In this document: positions 4,542-38,178 of the stretch, in pieces
Position numbering within the stretch: position 1 is the first letter of the stretch
Layout: every line of letters begins with the position of its first letter
IMG/VR virus record: IMGVR_UViG_3300044577_000032
Location: 1-38,313 of that record
DNA from: a virus
DNA length: 38,313 bases
Reading direction: 5' to 3' (one strand)
Translations under genes and position numbers: made by a program
The notes under the pieces: generated by a model
Databases searched by the model: none
What the model was told of the DNA's origin: nothing
The model's input: the letters and a program-made list of their open reading frames with translations, nothing else

Positions 4542-6186
4542 TTTCAAAAATCCTGACTACACGGAAGTATTCTATAACCGCCAACTAAGACTTGATCAGG
4601 TTCTATCCGATCCCCAGCTACTAGCAATAATGAAAGTCCACTATCGACACAATCCGATAGATTTTATCAATGATTGGGGTATGACGTTTGATCCCAGGCA
4701 AGTAGAAAAAGGCATGCTTGCAACCTTTCCATTTATTTTATGGCCAAGACAAGAGGAATATATCAATTGGCTAATGGAGAGATGGAAAACAGGAGAGTAT
4801 GGGCTAGCCGAAAAGTCCAGAGATTGCGGTGTAACTTGGCTATGTGTGGCATTTCAATGTGTTCAGTGGTTGTTTACTCCGGATTTCGCTGGTGGTTTTG
4901 GTTCTGCAAAGGTAACAAAGGTTGATAAAAAGGGCGATCCCGATTGTATTTTTGAGAAAATAAGGTTCTTTATACAGCACGTACCCAAGGTATTTATGCC
5001 AAAAGGATACAACGAGCGCTTACATAGCGGTTTCATGAAGTTAATCAACCCAGAGAATGGAGCAACCATAACGGGCGAAGGTGGTGACGACGTAGGGCGC
5101 GGAGGTCGCAAATCACTTTATATGGTAGACGAGGCCGCATCTATTGAACGCCAATTAGCCGTTGCCAACTCATTAAGCGCTACAACAAACTGCCAGATTG
5201 ATGTGAGTACGTACAAGGGTAACGGTAACCTTTTTTACAGAAATGCCATGAAATTTCACGGCACACCACAAAAATTTATCTTTGACTGGAAGCAAGATCC
5301 ACGAAAAGATGAGGCCTGGTACGCAAAACAAGTAAAAGACAAGGACCCGATCACAGTAGCACAAGAGATTGATCGTGATCCCAACGCATCATCAACGGAT
5401 GCATTTATACCAGCAAAATGGGTAAATGCTGCGATTGATTTACATAAACTCATTAAACTTGAACCGATTGGCATAAGAGCTACATCATTTGATCCTGCTG
5501 ACGTGGGAGACGCTAAAGCAGTCACATCTCGCCATGGTTACGTCATAACTGACGCAGAGCAGAAGACGGACGGAGATATTACGCAAGCAATTCCATGGGC
5601 TTATGAGTTGTCATTTAAACATAGGTCAGATGTACTAACATATGACGCGGATGGCATGGGCGCGCCTGCAATGAAACTAACATTTGACGCATACGCTGCC
5701 GGAAGAATGAATGTATTACCGTATTACGGATCTGGGAAAGTTGTTGATAAAAAGAAACGATACGGAGAAATACCAGGGGAGCCAGACCGCACATTAAAAA
5801 CAAATGAAGATCTATTTCTCAATTATAGAGCACAGACGGCTACATGGGCTAGAGATAGGTTCGAGGGAGCCTATAAACTAAGAAAACTGGTTGAAAGTGG
5901 TGCTGTAGCGTTGGAGGTTGATAGTGATAAAATAATATCCATTGATTCTACATGTGTTAACGCATTCGAGCTAATAGCGGAACTATCCAGACCAAAAAGA
6001 AAGTATACAGACAATGGTATAATAAGAGTAGAATCAAAAAAAGAAATGAAAGCCAGGGATATAGAGTCTCCCAACTTATTCGATACAACTATCATGTTGA
6101 TGGCTGTTAAAGTGCCTAGCTTACGCAGACGAAGAAAAGCACAAACACGAAGCATTCGAGCGAGAGATCGAGGGGTAGGTATGTAG
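4534..6186 (+). CDS. terL: large terminase subunit (550 aa)
   Basis: DNA-packaging motor and nuclease that fills the procapsid through the portal. ATPase part: adenine-side PFILWPRQEEYI (65-77), an atypical P-loop EKSRDCGVTW (93-102), and Walker B SLYMVDEAA with D199 E200. RNase H-like nuclease part: SFDPADVGD with D320, then TYDADGMGAP with D371/D373, and a C-terminal Asp in NLFDTTIML. The C-terminus is very basic (RRRRKAQTRSIRARDR). Length is normal for the family. No recognisable small terminase lies directly upstream, where paralogous small genes sit instead. Confidence 0.93.
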   Translation: MIDFKNPDYTEVFYNRQLRLDQVLSDPQLLAIMKVHYRHNPIDFINDWGMTFDPRQVEKGMLATFPFILWPRQEEYINWLMERWKTGEYGLAEKSRDCGVTWLCVAFQCVQWLFTPDFAGGFGSAKVTKVDKKGDPDCIFEKIRFFIQHVPKVFMPKGYNERLHSGFMKLINPENGATITGEGGDDVGRGGRKSLYMVDEAASIERQLAVANSLSATTNCQIDVSTYKGNGNLFYRNAMKFHGTPQKFIFDWKQDPRKDEAWYAKQVKDKDPITVAQEIDRDPNASSTDAFIPAKWVNAAIDLHKLIKLEPIGIRATSFDPADVGDAKAVTSRHGYVITDAEQKTDGDITQAIPWAYELSFKHRSDVLTYDADGMGAPAMKLTFDAYAAGRMNVLPYYGSGKVVDKKKRYGEIPGEPDRTLKTNEDLFLNYRAQTATWARDRFEGAYKLRKLVESGAVALEVDSDKIISIDSTCVNAFELIAELSRPKRKYTDNGIIRVESKKEMKARDIESPNLFDTTIMLMAVKVPSLRRRRKAQTRSIRARDRGVGM

Positions 6187-6187
6187 G

Positions 6188-6361
6188 ATGGGTTGTCCGC
6201 ACACAGAGTTCAGGAAAGGACAAAGACTAATTATTAGATTTAAGAATGGTGAAGTATTTATCGATCATTATGTGTCTAAAAAATCAGGAGTTATTATCCT
6301 GAAAAAACTAAAACGTGTACAGGTTAAAAAAATTAAAACTGTAGGAATTTATAAAAAGTAA
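6188..6361 (+). CDS. small basic protein (57 aa)
   Basis: Fifty-seven residues starting MGCPHTEFRKGQRLIIRFKN. Lys-rich, beta-like and SH3-like in cadence (GQRLIIRFKNGEVFIDHYV). Starts two bases after the terminase stop; the ribosome site would be GGTAGGTATG at the terminase end. Not recognised. Position and composition fit a small head-cluster gene. Confidence 0.65.
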   Translation: MGCPHTEFRKGQRLIIRFKNGEVFIDHYVSKKSGVIILKKLKRVQVKKIKTVGIYKK

Positions 6362-6375
6362 CAGAGGGTAGGAAT

Positions 6376-6765
6376 GTGAGCAAAGAACCAATGTATTTTA
6401 TGATTAAATTATCTCCAGCATATGAGGGATTTTTAGAAGACAAGAAAATGGACTGGAGAGATCTTGATGGCATCCTCCATAAACATGCAGCAAACCACAC
6501 TAAAAACTTTGTACGTAGTCTATATATGTCACCTGACATACTTCAAAAGATCGATCCCTTAGGACAGAGTGGTTATATTGGGTGGAGGGAATTACCCAAA
6601 GTGGGTGAAAATAACCATTACATCGACCGACCAACAAAACACCATTTTGAACACGGCAGCTGTGTAACAAAAGAAATAGCAATCTTTTGCAACCCTCCAC
6701 ACTTAAAAGAAGATTTCCCTTTTGAAGTAATTGGATTAATACCAGAGGAAAATAAGGAGAAGTAA
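6376..6765 (+). CDS. hypothetical protein (129 aa)
   Basis: Starts at GTG 6376 behind GAGGGTAGGA; the nearby ATG at 6374 runs straight into a stop. Soluble, rich in His and aromatic residues, no membrane span. Not recognised. It ends the unit that begins with the terminase, as a terminator follows within 60 bases. Confidence 0.7.
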   Translation: MSKEPMYFMIKLSPAYEGFLEDKKMDWRDLDGILHKHAANHTKNFVRSLYMSPDILQKIDPLGQSGYIGWRELPKVGENNHYIDRPTKHHFEHGSCVTKEIAIFCNPPHLKEDFPFEVIGLIPEENKEK

Positions 6766-34399: not shown

Positions 34400-34960
34400 A
34401 TGTTAGTTAAAAATATATTAATAATGATTTTAATTTTACCTTTAACAGTGGTTGGTAAAGAGGTTGTCTTAGATGTAATGATTACTATATCTGTAGTAAA
34501 AGACATATGTTTATCTTTGAAAGAAAACGATATTCTTAAGATTTCTAGTTATGGTGGTTACACGCTACCAGCAATAGAATTATCGTTATGTGTTAGAGAT
34601 AAAAGTGTAACGGTTTCGATAGATCATGCTGAATCAGCCGCCACTTTTATAGTGTTGGCGGCCAAAAAAGTGTGCTTTAATAAAAAGGTTGCTATAGGAT
34701 TTCATTCACCTATTTTTTTAAATAAAAAAACTAGAGAACCAGAAGATTTCAGTATTTCAAAAATGTCCAGGTATGTTGTTTTTATGCAATATTTTTATGA
34801 AAGGTGGGGTTATACACCAACACAGGTAGCAGCATTGTTAGTCATGGTTATAAAAACACCTCCAAGCGGGATGCATTACCTCAAACACGAGGAAGCAGTT
34901 ACTTTACTGGGCGATAGATACATAGGCAGTTGTGATAACGCTCAAAGCATTCCACAATAG
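34400..34960 (+). CDS. secreted ClpP/crotonase-fold protein (186 aa)
   Basis: A hydrophobic signal sequence (residues 1-19) precedes a ClpP-type pattern: ILKISSYGGYTLPAIELSLC (oxyanion-strand region; usually Ser-Pro-Gly-Gly), then DHAESAATFIVLAAKKVCF with S79 in the place of the nucleophile, then AIGFHSP with H102, 23 residues later as in ClpP-like enzymes. The third acidic residue is not clear. Family members include periplasmic serine proteases. Ribosome site GAGGAG. Follows the outer-membrane enzyme gene, which suggests the operon acts on the envelope. Confidence 0.65.
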   Translation: MLVKNILIMILILPLTVVGKEVVLDVMITISVVKDICLSLKENDILKISSYGGYTLPAIELSLCVRDKSVTVSIDHAESAATFIVLAAKKVCFNKKVAIGFHSPIFLNKKTREPEDFSISKMSRYVVFMQYFYERWGYTPTQVAALLVMVIKTPPSGMHYLKHEEAVTLLGDRYIGSCDNAQSIPQ

Positions 34961-34962
34961 TC

Positions 34963-35057
34963 ATTATAGTAAGTGGAACCATAATGTTAGTAGAGTTGTT
35001 GGTAGCACACATCTTTACAGTATAAGGCATAAGCTATTTGGTTCCACTCACTATGAT
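34963..35057 (+). ncRNA. candidate structured RNA closed by a 19-bp helix
   Basis: Positions 34963-34981 pair with 35039-35057 with one A-C mismatch and one G-U; the core AGTGGAACCA/TGGTTCCACT is uninterrupted. The 57-base apical part has no uninterrupted open frame. It sits between the ClpP-like stop and the next small gene, starting two bases after the stop. Without a T tract it is not a standard terminator. Could be an untranslated-region structure or a separate RNA. Confidence 0.55.
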
Positions 35058-35272
35058 TATTATCAACAATGGAGAAAATAGTGAACAATATATACAAACG
35101 CATTCTAAATACGGCAAAAATGATTAAGGAAGACAACCTGGCTATTTCAAAACAACCAATAGAAACAGTGTGTGGAACCAATGTAGATGTCAACATCTCA
35201 CATCATTCAACGGTAACTGAATTAAATGAAATTATAGACATTTGTCAAACTATAATTATTATCAACAATGGA
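35056..35272. repeat. 18-bp direct repeat before two consecutive genes
   Basis: ATTATTATCAACAATGGA occurs at 35056-35073 and again, identical, at 35255-35272, 199 bases apart, each just before a small gene. The first copy joins the 3' arm of the RNA helix at 34963-35057; the second copy lies at the end of the first gene. Confidence 0.75.
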
Positions 35273-35275
35273 TAG
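35081..35275 (+). CDS. small hypothetical protein (64 aa)
   Basis: GTG 35081 has GGAG six bases before it; an in-frame ATG at 35069 has no ribosome site. Sixty-four residues, MNNIYKRILNTAKMIKEDNL, with a helical middle and a hydrophobic end (IIDICQTIIIINNG). Not recognised. The leader repeats an 18-base stretch found again before the next gene. Confidence 0.55.
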   Translation: MNNIYKRILNTAKMIKEDNLAISKQPIETVCGTNVDVNISHHSTVTELNEIIDICQTIIIINNG

Positions 35276-35279
35276 AACA

Positions 35280-35492
35280 ATGGGCACAGATGAAAAAGTA
35301 TTAACGATGATTTTGGAAGGTAGGAAAAGCCAGCAAGCGCCTATCAAACAAACGAGAACACCGGATCACAGAAGTTATTTTTTTGCTATTGGTAATGATT
35401 ATTATGCTGAATTAATAATATCAGAAGATGCGATTGAATCATTGAAAGAAATTAATTTTCAGCAAAATAAACTTGACAGAAAAGAGAGTTAA
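35280..35492 (+). CDS. small hypothetical protein (70 aa)
   Basis: Start at ATG 35280 chosen by analogy with the previous gene (GGATAG before it); ATG 35268 in frame would add four residues (MDRT). Polar at the start, then SYFFAIGNDYYAELIISEDA. Not recognised. Its end contains the promoter for the RNA block. Confidence 0.6.
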   Translation: MGTDEKVLTMILEGRKSQQAPIKQTRTPDHRSYFFAIGNDYYAELIISEDAIESLKEINFQQNKLDRKES

Positions 35493-35500
35493 CGTAAAAT
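35473..35500 (+). promoter_or_regulatory. promoter for the structured-RNA block
   Basis: TTGACA (35473-35478), 16-base spacer, TAAAAT (35495-35500). The start would be near 35507, at a small ACTG/CAGT hairpin (35508-35511, 35520-35523), before the first long helix. It lies inside the end of the small gene at 35280. Confidence 0.65.
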
Positions 35501-35547
35501 ATATATTACTGATTAGAACCAGTGTAAAAAATCTCAAAAATAGACAG

Positions 35548-35638
35548 AAGCTTTAAAGCAAATTTCAGAGCCTTAGTTGTAACATTTTTTGAGTAACTAA
35601 ACGCTGTTCTAACTGAGGTTTGCTTTAAGGCTTTTTTT
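35548..35638 (+). terminator. long-helix terminator or RNA element A
   Basis: A 21-bp helix, 35548-35568 with 35613-35633, with three G-U pairs and no mismatch, runs straight into TTTTTTT (35632-35638). A nested TTAGTT/AACTAA stem (35573-35578, 35595-35600) lies in the loop. The T tract makes it able to end transcription. The 44-base loop is very large for a terminator, so a processed RNA is also possible. Confidence 0.65.
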
Positions 35639-35639
35639 A

Positions 35640-35696
35640 TGTCCATTGCACAGAGCCTAGTCCAGTTGACGTGTGTAGCTGTGATATCAATGGACA
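35640..35696 (+). ncRNA. candidate small RNA B (57 nt)
   Basis: TGTCCATTG (35640-35648) pairs perfectly with CAATGGACA (35688-35696). CACAG (35649-35653) pairs with CTGTG (35679-35683), leaving an ATAT bulge. The 25-base loop is open. It starts one base after the T tract of element A and has no open reading frame of note. Confidence 0.5.
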
Positions 35697-35709
35697 CCCT
35701 TCAAAGCAA

Positions 35710-35870
35710 TAAACCTATTTAGATGAGTATAAGGTAATTTCATGGTAGTCCGAAAGTTATGGGTGGAAAGGTAGCGGACGAGAAATTGTTAAATGACGAC
35801 CAAGAAATTAGCTATGGGTAAATCTACCGTACACTGTACCTTGAATAGCATACTCATTTAAGTAGGTTTA
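35710..35870 (+). ncRNA. candidate structured RNA C (161 nt)
   Basis: The closing helix has 21 pairs (35710-35730 with 35850-35870) with two G-U and no mismatch. A seven-base bulge follows, then six pairs (AAGGTA 35731-35736 with TACCTT 35837-35842). Inside, AATTTC/GAAATT (35736-35741, 35782-35787; the first base is shared with the stem below it) encloses GTCCG/CGGAC (35748-35752, 35775-35779). GGTAG at 35744 or at 35770 could pair with CTACC at 35824. No open frame. No resemblance to a known class by eye. Confidence 0.6.
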
Positions 35871-35880
35871 AATATTTTAT

Positions 35881-35954
35881 GACCAAGTAGCTTATATGGT
35901 AAAGCAGCCGACTAATAATCGGTGTTAAGCAAGATTCAAAGCTTGCCTTGGTCG
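35881..35954 (+). tRNA. tRNA-like gene, apparent anticodon AAU (Ile codon AUU)
   Basis: Acceptor GACCAAG with CTTGGTC (35947-35953) and discriminator G, then CC. D arm GCTT/AAGC with GG in the loop. Anticodon stem GCCGA/TCGGT with a seven-base loop CTAATAA, so anticodon AAT. Variable loop GTTAA. T stem GCAAG/CTTGC perfect, but its loop ATTCAAAG has eight bases and lacks TTC at the normal place; position 15 is T. All four stems are intact, but these departures, and an AAU anticodon that bacteria normally do not use, make a tRNA-derived RNA as likely as a working tRNA. Confidence 0.7.
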
Positions 35955-35960
35955 CCTTTT

Positions 35961-36103
35961 AAAGTATTTATATGTGGTGGAGTTGACAAGGTGGGCTTAA
36001 CAGTAGCCATCCTTTAAAGAGTAGAGTTAAATTGAACTACGTGAAAGAAAGTAGTTTCTTTTGGTGTAATAACACAGTTAGCTCCCCTTCATATAAATAT
36101 TTT
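35961..36103 (+). ncRNA. candidate structured RNA E (143 nt), cloverleaf-like
   Basis: Fourteen closing pairs (35961-35974 with 36090-36103, one G-U), then GGAG/CTCC (35979-35982, 36082-36085). Three separate hairpins follow: AAGG..GGCT/AGCC..CCTT (35988-36014), AACTAC/GTAGTT (36035-36056), GTGT/ACAC (36064-36075). This is a multi-branch fold. It begins five bases after the tRNA-like gene. The right arm ends in a T tract, so it might also end transcription. Confidence 0.6.
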
Positions 36104-36131
36104 TAATACACAAACATTAATTGAGATAGTT

Positions 36132-36296
36132 ATGAACGATGAAGAGGTTTCACCATTTGGCATTAAAGGATTTATTTATTACGTAATGGGCAAAGGATCA
36201 AATTTGACTTTATTCGGGAAGTTATTTTTTTCCCCATTACTCATTTTGATGCTTTTAACATATATAACCATTAGTTTTTTATTTTGTAAGAAGTAA
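36132..36296 (+). CDS. tiny membrane protein (54 aa) within the RNA block
   Basis: Fifty-four residues, MNDEEVSPFGIKGFIYYVMG, with a clear hydrophobic span at about 29-52 (LFFSPLLILMLLTYITISFL), a short acidic start and a basic end (CKK). Ribosome site GAGATAG, weak. The only credible coding gene between 35493 and 36575. Function unknown; small single-span phage proteins can serve in exclusion or lysis. Confidence 0.55.
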   Translation: MNDEEVSPFGIKGFIYYVMGKGSNLTLFGKLFFSPLLILMLLTYITISFLFCKK

Positions 36297-36302
36297 GTAA
36301 AG

Positions 36303-36529
36303 AGTCGCGGTGCATAGTGTATGCTCCACTAATAAAGAGATGTGAAAAGATGCAGGTAATAACCTAAAGTATCGTAATCTAAAACGTAATCCGAATTAGT
36401 GAATGAAGTCTTGAGTAAACTCGCATGAGATAAAAGGTAATCTCTAATCGGGGTGTAACAAGGTCGAGTATAATCAAGTAAATCTTAGCTTGTGAATCAG
36501 GACACTGAGAACACTATTTATAAGCGATT
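36303..36529 (+). ncRNA. candidate structured RNA F (about 227 nt)
   Basis: Closing pairs AGTCGC/GCGATT (36303-36308, 36524-36529) and ATAGTGT/ACACTAT (36314-36320, 36511-36517). Inside: CCGAATTAG with CTAATCGG (36391-36399, 36444-36451; the last base overlaps the next stem), GAGAT/ATCTC (36427-36431, 36440-36444), ACAAG/CTTGT (36458-36462, 36489-36493). A GCTCC/GGAGC hairpin (36531-36535, 36541-36545) follows. No open frame of note. Weaker than elements A, C and E because the helices are short. Confidence 0.42.
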
Positions 36530-36575
36530 AGCTCCCGTAAGGAGCCACCCAATCAAACCACAAAGAGGCTAAATA

Positions 36576-36785
36576 ATGATAGTACAAAAAGAGATGGCAA
36601 AGTTTTTTATGGATCAGGTTATCGGTGATTACGATGGTCATATGGCTCCTATACCTAATAATCCAGTATTAAACAGTATAGCAACAGCTTACGGTATTAA
36701 ATACCAACCAAAACAATTTGCTGAATTTTTGAGAGGTATCGCTGATGCTTTAGATGACCCATTTGTGAAAACTACAGTTATATAA
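36576..36785 (+). CDS. small hypothetical protein (69 aa)
   Basis: GAGG ribosome site before ATG 36576. MIVQKEMAKFFMDQVIGDYD, then NPVLNSIATAYGIKYQPKQF, AEFLRGIADAL. Compact helical protein, not recognised. Followed by a possible 17-residue frame (ATG 36797, GAGG before it) and then the promoter at 36819. Confidence 0.65.
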   Translation: MIVQKEMAKFFMDQVIGDYDGHMAPIPNNPVLNSIATAYGIKYQPKQFAEFLRGIADALDDPFVKTTVI

Positions 36786-36818
36786 AGAGGTAATTAATGC
36801 GCTGGTTTAATATAAAGC

Positions 36819-36846
36819 TTGAAATATTAACAAAGTGTAGTAAAAT
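36819..36846 (+). promoter_or_regulatory. promoter of the small RNA G
   Basis: TTGAAA (36819-36824), 16-base spacer, TAAAAT (36841-36846). Transcription would start at about 36853, which is the first base of the CGCGGC helix. The match of start and helix argues for a separate transcript. Confidence 0.6.
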
Positions 36847-36852
36847 TTAAAT

Positions 36853-36908
36853 CGCGGCTAGCTTGGATTAATTACCTAAGTGAAAGCCTAACGCCTTTGG
36901 TGGCCGCG
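36853..36908 (+). ncRNA. candidate small RNA G, three-way junction (56 nt)
   Basis: CGCGGCTA (36853-36860) pairs with TGGCCGCG (36901-36908) with one G-U. CTTGG/CTAAG (36862-36866, 36876-36880) and AAAG/CTTT (36883-36886, 36895-36898) form two inner hairpins. It lies just before the HNH gene in a GC-rich island within an AT-rich gap, and directly downstream of a promoter. It might regulate the HNH gene in cis (as a leader structure) or act as a small RNA. Confidence 0.55.
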
Positions 36909-36946
36909 CAACTTTTCTGAAAGGCGAATAATTAAAGGCGATCAAA

Positions 36947-37429
36947 ATGTTGACCCAAGAACAAGTCAGAAAATTATTTAATTACAATTCAGAAACAGGC
37001 GTTTTGACCTGGAAAATAAGACCTGCAAATAACGTTCAAATTGGCGATACGGCAGGCTCTGACAATGGCGAAGAATATCTGCAAACAAAAATAAACAGAA
37101 GGCTCCACTATAATCACCGAATTTCCTATTTGTGGTATCACGGCTATCTCCCTGAGTTTATCGACCACAAAAATGGCATGTCAAACAAAATCGACAATCT
37201 CAGAGAATGTACGCAGTCGCAAAACCAATGCAACAGAAAATTAAATAGAAATAATACCAGTGGAATAAAAGGCGTGTCATGGAATAAGCTCGCTAAAAAA
37301 TGGGTAGCTAAAGTTTATATTGACGGAAAGCAAAAACACCTAGGCTTTTTCACAGGATTATCAGATGCAGAATCAGCAGTAAAAGCCGCAAGAAAAAAGC
37401 ACCATGGTGAGTTTGTAAATCATGGATAA
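36947..37429 (+). CDS. HNH homing endonuclease with AP2 DNA-binding domain (160 aa)
   Basis: Residues 50-98 carry an HNH_3-type nuclease (HYNHRISYLWYHGYLPEFID, then HKNGMSNKIDNLRECTQSQN) with H57, D73-H74 and N80 as likely catalytic or metal residues. Residues 104-155 are an AP2-type DNA-binding domain (SGIKGVSWNKLAKKWVAKVY, LGFFTGLSDAESAVKAARKK). A free-standing homing nuclease that copies itself into phages lacking it. Ribosome region AAAGGCGATCAAA. It may have inserted recently between the RNA block and replication genes. Confidence 0.9.
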   Translation: MLTQEQVRKLFNYNSETGVLTWKIRPANNVQIGDTAGSDNGEEYLQTKINRRLHYNHRISYLWYHGYLPEFIDHKNGMSNKIDNLRECTQSQNQCNRKLNRNNTSGIKGVSWNKLAKKWVAKVYIDGKQKHLGFFTGLSDAESAVKAARKKHHGEFVNHG

Positions 37430-37461
37430 TAAAATTACAGACTCTTTGAGTTCGATAGATA

Positions 37462-38178
37462 ATGAATAACGGATTTATAACATTACACAGAAAAATCCTG
37501 GAGTGGGAGTGGTATGACGATCTAAATACAGCTAGATTATTTATTCACTGCTTACTCAAAGCTAATCATAAAGACGGAAAATGGCGCGGCATTATCATTA
37601 AGAGGGGGTCGTTTTTAACGTCAACAAATACATTATCTAAAGAAACTAAGCTTTCAACTAGTCAAATTCGCACGGCAATAAAAAAGCTAAAATCGACAAA
37701 CGAAATAACAAGCCAGTCGCAAGCTCAATACAGCGTCATTACTATGCTTGAGTATGATCGATACCAAACCAATGACAAACTAAATGACAAACCAATGACA
37801 AACCAATCACAAACCAATGACAAACCAATGACAACTAACAACAATGAAAACAATGAAAACAATGAAAACAATAAACCAAAAAAAGAAAAGATTCCCTACC
37901 AACATATTGTTGATTTATACAACGATATTTTAACAGACCTACCAAACGTTTTTGAATTAACCCCTAAGCGGAAAACAGGCATTAAAAAATTATACAATTT
38001 TAAGAAGGAACATAAAGATATTTCTTGGTGGAGAGATTATTTTACTTTCATAACCAAATCTAATTTTCTAATGGGTAGAGTTGAAATGAGTGGAAATCAC
38101 GAAAACTGGAAATGTGATTTTGATTTTATTATCAACATCAATAAATTCGTCAATATAATCGAAGGTAAATACAAATGA
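37462..38178 (+). CDS. phage replication initiator, O/DnaD-like (238 aa)
   Basis: Starts DNA replication by binding origin repeats and loading host replication proteins. Residues 1-60 (GFITLHRKILEWEWYDDLNT, ARLFIHCLLKANHKDGKWRG) and a winged-helix up to 100 (LSTSQIRTAIKKLKSTNEIT) are typical of phage replisome organisers. Residues 102-140 are an Asn-rich linker built from repeats. Residues 145-230 form a DnaD-like C-terminal domain (WWRDYFTFITKSNFLMGR, ENWKCDFDFIININKFVNII). As in lambda, the DNA of the linker may be the origin. ATGA overlap with the next gene. Confidence 0.8.
   Translation: MNNGFITLHRKILEWEWYDDLNTARLFIHCLLKANHKDGKWRGIIIKRGSFLTSTNTLSKETKLSTSQIRTAIKKLKSTNEITSQSQAQYSVITMLEYDRYQTNDKLNDKPMTNQSQTNDKPMTTNNNENNENNENNKPKKEKIPYQHIVDLYNDILTDLPNVFELTPKRKTGIKKLYNFKKEHKDISWWRDYFTFITKSNFLMGRVEMSGNHENWKCDFDFIININKFVNIIEGKYK
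37763..37875. repeat. iteron-like repeats in the initiator gene (candidate origin)
   Basis: The 12-base motif ACAAACCAATGA or close variants occurs at least four times in 37765-37830, then AACAATGAAA repeats four times to 37872. The order (repeats, then AT-rich tract, within the linker of the initiator gene) is that of the lambda origin. They also create the Asn/Gln-rich linker. Confidence 0.65.

Follow-up and report, generated by a model that had tools for sequence, protein, structure and literature searches.

Genes and RNA elements at the locus

The window, by which we mean the whole stretch of DNA analysed, comprises the 38,313 bases of an IMG/VR virus record from a marine phage. Its genes code for a large terminase (46% identical to the best annotated relative, from Pseudoalteromonas phage TW1), a portal-type protein, an S74 tail-spike protein, a PagL-like protein, an HNH endonuclease and an O-like replication protein. 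In a noncoding stretch of the window, several long-stem RNAs lie end to end around a tRNA-like gene, which is the arrangement by which we define an array in this work. All elements described here lie on the + strand. Element Z (34957-35063), detected by the helix scan, is enclosed in a 23-bp stem (25 columns, 2 mismatches); it lies upstream of the block delimited by the sequence-only reading, which had missed it. Element A (35546-35635) is closed by a 23-bp stem with 4 G-U pairs and no mismatches (arms 35546-35568/35613-35635) and is followed by a U-run. Element B (35640-35696) is a 57-nt RNA with a 9-bp stem (arms 35640-35648/35688-35696) and an inner helix of 5 bp. Element C (35710-35870) is a 161-nt RNA in which internal hairpins are held by a 21-bp stem with 2 G-U pairs and no mismatches (arms 35710-35730/35850-35870). 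The tRNA-like gene, element D (35881-35954), comes next and is followed by element E (35961-36103), whose inner hairpins are enclosed by 25 pairs, with 4 G-U pairs and 2 mismatches (arms 35961-35987/36077-36103). The spacing between C, D and E is 6-10 nt. The helices that had been proposed for A, B, C and E were all recovered, and the accompanying claim that they are free of mismatches held for A, B and C and failed for E.

Downstream of E, the tiny membrane gene noticed earlier is present as a small ORF of 54 aa (36132-36296, + strand). It probably encodes a membrane peptide, judging by eye from its hydrophobic C-terminal half, and family searches gave no family for it. The last element of the earlier reading, F (36303-36525), did not stand out from chance as a structured RNA: its folding z-score was -1.25, 41 of 300 shuffles folded equally well, and a wider stretch gave a z-score of -2.4. 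A small hairpin without a U-run, GCUCC-CGUAA-GGAGC, follows at 36531-36545. Further downstream, the HNH endonuclease (36947-37429; HNH_3 and a weak AP2 match) is likely a homing enzyme near the array. The stem GCGGCUA/UGGCCGC upstream of its gene (36853-36910) was not above chance (z -0.26).

The promoter-like motif TTGACA-16-TAAAAT with which the earlier reading opened the block is present at 35473-35500 (+ strand). It is a consensus match only, at 11 of 12 positions, and overlaps the end of the ORF at 35268-35492; sites of such quality numbered 16 against 11.9 expected in the 3 kb scanned. Terminator-like sites were searched for in 34500-37500 and none was found. This bears on the explanation that the helices are independent regulatory hairpins between small genes, acting as intrinsic terminators, attenuators or stabilisers of mRNA 3' ends. 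The U-run after the stem of A and the small ORFs preceding Z and A would agree with such hairpins, but apart from the missing terminators, their loops are whole folded domains of ~40-119 nt, and C, D and E are consecutive with no genes between them. We consider this explanation very unlikely.

Non-randomness of the helices and strand preference

The long helices of Z, A, C and E are real. In a helix scan of the 38-kb contig, they were the top long-range helices, apart from a low-complexity TCTGGR repeat at 1866-2046 that ranked above them. Five helices of the contig scored at least 42, namely those of Z, A, C and E and one in the repeat. By comparison, two such helices arose altogether when the full 38-kb contig was dinucleotide-shuffled 100 times, and of 1000 shuffles confined to 34900-36150, 1 attained this score. 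The TCTGGR hexamer repeat itself (1866-2076) has a strong fold (z -6.75) and lies inside a + strand open frame.

On the + strand, the folding z-scores were -5.0 for Z, -5.0 for A, -3.1 for B, -4.9 to -5.3 for C, -3.2 for D and -6.1 to -6.2 for E. Folding of the - strand was weaker for Z, A, B, C and E and about equal for D. Read on the + strand, 12 G-U pairs and 1 A-C pair occur in the stems that close Z, A, C and E, a count that fits an RNA transcribed from this strand. The earlier argument that G-U pairs indicate selection on RNA is in line with this count and with the stronger + strand folding; in the other phage arrays described below, the excess of G-U over A-C is modest (211 vs 161).

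The strand preference also bears on the proposal that these are DNA-level inverted repeats, serving as recombination, replication or protein-binding sites and not as RNA. The O-like replication protein is encoded at 37462-38175, with the array ~1.5 kb upstream, and perfect inverted repeats are known in either role. Against a DNA-level role stand the bias towards G-U pairs and the better fold on one strand. In addition, the stems span folded inserts of 57-161 nt, unlike binding palindromes, the tRNA and tRNA-like genes of the arrays share their orientation, and the related marine array L168 (see below) adjoins the terminase gene and not a replication gene. We regard DNA-level repeats as unlikely. 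For integron attC sites, the layout, with stems in a row and no cassette genes, argues against such an assignment.

The tRNA-like gene D

The cloverleaf proposed for D was confirmed by Rfam, in which RF00005 scored 46.5 bits against a gathering score of 29. ARAGORN does not call D as a tRNA, and its T-loop, AUUCAAAG, has 8 nt where the canonical loop has 7. By reading of the sequence, the anticodon loop is CUAAUAA with an AAU anticodon (Ile-type), and the discriminator position after the acceptor stem is G. The 5' part of D is 82-85% identical to tRNA-Ile of Gamaleyavirus coliphages (85% over 48 nt), and the anticodon hairpin CCGACUAAUAAUCGG is identical in D and in the Gamaleyavirus tRNA-Ile(AAU). 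D is also related to the tRNA-like gene of L168 (shuffle test, z 11.3). A search of IMG/VR with the exact tRNA pattern of D gave no match, and relaxed patterns returned other tRNAs.

As a separate observation, the hairpin GACTAATAATC occurs in the variable arms of tRNA-Ser, tRNA-Tyr and tRNA-Thr of apparently unrelated phages (L131, L138, L141, L145 and L146) and also, within tRNA-Ile(AAU) genes, in the anticodon arm; it looks commoner than chance.

Searches for homologues and known families

A search of the window against Rfam, the GOLLD and ROOL models included, at the gathering score and E <= 5 returned only the tRNA, with no GOLLD, ROOL or intron, leaving the locus otherwise uncovered by Rfam. 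Matches to miRNA and archaeal sRNA families were under their cut-offs and were discarded as chance hairpins. The tmRNA covariance model had no match in 35000-37400, and a search for the RNA repeats of type III toxin-antitoxin systems revealed no repeat family in the window beyond short chance pairs.

At the DNA level, the RNA block had no match at 1e-5 among the annotated phages of INPHARED and no convincing homologue among plasmids. The 46 IMG/VR records with related proteins contained no homologue of the block, the only solid match being the 69-aa ORF, and the neighbouring proteins of 69 aa and 186 aa, used as bait, drew no relatives from IMG/VR. Elements A, B, C and Z had no homologue in anything searched. 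In Vibrio phages, the gaps that precede the replication gene seem to be small ORFs left unannotated and not arrays. A likeness by eye between the C stem and a Gamaleyavirus stem (CTAT..ATGAGTA) scored no better than other pairs.

Isolated long-stem noncoding elements were seen in IMG/VR phages whose portal or replication proteins are related (L008 782-915, L013 3736-3829, L018 8410-8531, L021 492-650, L053 668-811 and L082 4139-4329); they have no sequence match to the window.

A related marine array

Alignment of portal proteins (best segment 59% identical, i.e. ~60%) led to L168, which belongs to a 27-kb contig placed in the bin of a planctomycete genome; its array was recognised in part by its helices. 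The L168 array (6025-6700) precedes an exonuclease-like gene and the terminase. It contains stems of 25 bp, 12 bp and 21 bp in a row and a tRNA-like gene (33.2 bits) whose anticodon region is expanded and which lies inside an outer 10-bp stem. One of its elements carries two T-arm motifs. Another relative, the fragment L002 (64% portal identity), has no array upstream of its terminase.

We compared the elements of the two arrays pairwise. E and L168 element 3 share a closing stem with a joint score of 22, which was reached in 0 of 3000 shuffles; any other pairing scored 12 or less. Among the 22 pairs of this stem, 4 were changed on both sides with pairing kept, a level of covariation that 32 of 500 shuffles also reached and that comes from one related sequence only. 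The covariation anticipated for A, C and E has to that extent been seen for E, with A and C having no homologue. The inserts of E and L168 element 3 are unrelated (z -0.7), and this homologous stem around unrelated inserts is the window's own, single case of exchange. Z, A, B and C had no significant partner in L168; a likeness of Z to L168 element 1 was by eye only (P 0.28) and was rejected.

The insert of L168 element 5 is related to an insert of the Klebsiella phage Kpn BU9 (blastn E 3e-5, z 21). By reading of the sequences, the 12-bp stem of the Klebsiella element differs from that of L168 element 5 at 4 positions, all of them compensated. This kinship connects marine and enterobacterial arrays by more than a general likeness in shape.

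Arrays in N4, Gamaleyavirus and other phages

The match of D to tRNA-Ile led us to Gamaleyavirus, and the same layout was found in mostly unannotated noncoding regions of 1-2.4 kb in N4, Gamaleyavirus, two Ackermannviridae and a P1-like phage. In Gamaleyavirus, the N4 gp47-like and gp48-like genes are separated by ~2 kb in which annotated protein genes are few or absent. In N4 itself (EF056009, array at ~32.1-33.6 kb; L150 1813-3331), 1.5 kb between gp47 and gp48 carry no annotation, and we read in this interval tRNA genes for Asn, Ser and Thr and at least 3 stem-closed RNAs (24, 26 and 13 bp). In these intervals, RNAs closed by stems of 13-26 bp abut tRNAs and CCA-ended tRNA-like RNAs. The N4 relative Moo19, which has only ordinary tRNAs in its interval, has no long stem there. 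A blastn search with a Gamaleyavirus array as query gave piecewise matches in 661 phage records, among them Serratia phage 3M, Erwinia phage Bue1 (Ackermannviridae) and Ro157c2YLVW (Punavirus). Helices scoring at least 40 occurred at 0.78 per kb in 15 arrays, most of which had been found by sequence matches and not by their helices, vs 0.026 per kb across other phage loci totalling 703 kb.

Further RNAs were noticed in this material. An unannotated array RNA of Gamaleyavirus Uz-1 (L125 3057-3218) has a tmRNA-like reading frame, GCAAACGATGATGTTGTTCTGATGGCAGCC-TAA-TAA, with the tag ANDDVVLMAA; it matched RF04321 at 33.4 bits (E 3e-5), which is under the gathering score of 47. This RNA is also present in L152, L154, L164 and L167, and its families have weaker matches in Ackermannviridae, Akiravirus and Triduovirus arrays. 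At L110 4028-5290, 1.26 kb of noncoding sequence include a tRNA-Gly(UCC), an 18-bp stem and tRNA-like genes that carry large inserts. L111 (4293-4423, - strand) holds a tRNA-like gene with an insert of ~71 nt in the variable region, and this phage appears to read TGA as an amino acid.

Covariation of stems and exchange of inserts

In the other phage arrays, 10 distinct versions of one stem type could be aligned (set A1), with 94.7% of cells paired; the arms were trimmed by hand and chosen as already known to pair, so this percentage is biased upward and the double-sided changes are the informative part. Such changes affected 11 of 17 pairs, a level that none of 500 shuffles reached, and sliding the arms left at most 56.5% paired.

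Stems and inserts were found in different combinations. Identical or near-identical arms enclose unrelated inserts in TR2_2397 vs Uz1_2944 (z 0.5) and in PBM3 vs APEC5 (z -0.5). Conversely, TR2_2397 and E20_1646 have matching inserts (z 44) in different arms (z 0.5). Shuffle tests were used here since percent identities of inserts from gapped global alignments are inflated. T-arm motifs are found in inserts of L168 and of the enterobacterial arrays; by reading, the inserts of the window have none.

These results weigh on two further explanations. The first is that one giant ornate RNA of the GOLLD/ROOL type extends across the block, an alternative that the sequence-only reading had offered. 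GOLLD and ROOL are structured phage RNAs that often occur near tRNA islands (PMC12286853), the block likewise adjoins a tRNA-like gene in a phage, and a global fold can be drawn for all of its 1073 nt. Every element, however, has a closing helix of its own, the elements of other phages swap and vary in number independently, and neither Rfam model matches, so that a single giant RNA has hardly any chance of being the right description. The second is a decaying tRNA island, whose degraded tRNA genes would persist as stem-loops with no present function. The aberrant T-loop of D, its escape from ARAGORN and the T-arm motifs that persist in L168 inserts would suit decay. What decay does not produce is near-perfect stems of 21-25 bp; moreover, compensatory changes keep the stems in related arrays, and long noncoding stretches are retained in compact phage genomes. 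Decay therefore appears decidedly unlikely.

Interpretation and proposed mechanism

The analysis supports the other alternative of the sequence-only reading, a phage-encoded locus of several RNAs around a tRNA-like gene, of which Rfam covers only the tRNA. The block is probably a polycistronic + strand array of separate RNAs (Z, A, B, C and E) around D, with variable inserts in long stems. That it is an array of stem-closed RNAs is in itself very likely, and its membership in a wider class of cassettes is probable, at a slightly lower level than the full description of the block. Each RNA could be viewed as a cassette in which a terminal stem of ~9-25 bp holds a folded, variable insert. Transcription may start at the promoter-like site at 35473 and yield one or few precursors. 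The two-turn stems would then be RNase III processing stalks that release and protect each RNA, and D would be cut out by tRNA enzymes. Since many inserts of related arrays keep a T-arm and adjoin tRNAs and the tmRNA-like RNA, the released RNAs are proposed to be tRNA-like or tRNA-associated and to work, while infection proceeds, in host translation or tRNA metabolism, for instance countering tRNA-cutting defences as substitutes or decoys. Phage-encoded tRNAs that act against host tRNA-targeting defences and evade tRNA cutting have been described (PMC10264068, PMC11555353). Based on the T-arms of related inserts, the tRNA and tmRNA-like neighbours and these phage tRNAs, a function in translation or tRNA metabolism, perhaps directed against defences that target tRNAs, is conceivable but rather doubtful.

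Tentatively, several tailed-phage families may share an undescribed combinatorial RNA system, in which the long stems are interchangeable frames for processing or recombination and a pool of tRNA-like inserts diversifies fast because it counters host defences that target tRNA or translation; we hold this as a possibility that falls short of even chances. The data suggest a widespread but overlooked class of viral RNAs. We found no description of such arrays in the literature available to us, which covers only a minority of subscription papers and does not prove that none exists. Phage tRNA islands are usually annotated as tRNAs and empty space. If this space holds exchangeable stem-closed RNAs, as in N4 and marine metagenome phages, there is a viral RNA class absent from Rfam that is testable directly in laboratory strains.

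Comparison with known systems

A close likeness in organisation is to the gp47-gp48 arrays of Gamaleyavirus and N4 (Schitoviridae), which are also rows of stem-closed RNAs around tRNAs. They differ from the window in that none of A, B, C, E and Z matches them in sequence, that many of their elements are CCA-ended and that one has a tmRNA-like reading frame. In bacterial pre-rRNA, long complementary flanks around a functional RNA form RNase III stems. Compared with these, the window inserts are much smaller, many per array and exchangeable, and processing in the window is a proposal only. GOLLD and ROOL are each a single, elaborately folded RNA several hundred nt long, and the window has no match to their covariance models. 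The phage tRNAs that evade defences are ordinary tRNAs thought to work in translation, and most of the window RNAs are not tRNAs. Finally, T4 RNA C and D (species 1 and 2) are small stable RNAs of 119-139 nt in a phage tRNA cluster, and the window RNAs resemble them in position and size, with one tRNA-like gene in place of a full cluster. RNA C has a T-arm. When tested, neither T4 RNA had a long closing stem, and there are only two of them, with no modular array. The arrays described here bear on the old question of what purpose the RNAs of phage tRNA regions, such as T4 RNA C and D, serve.
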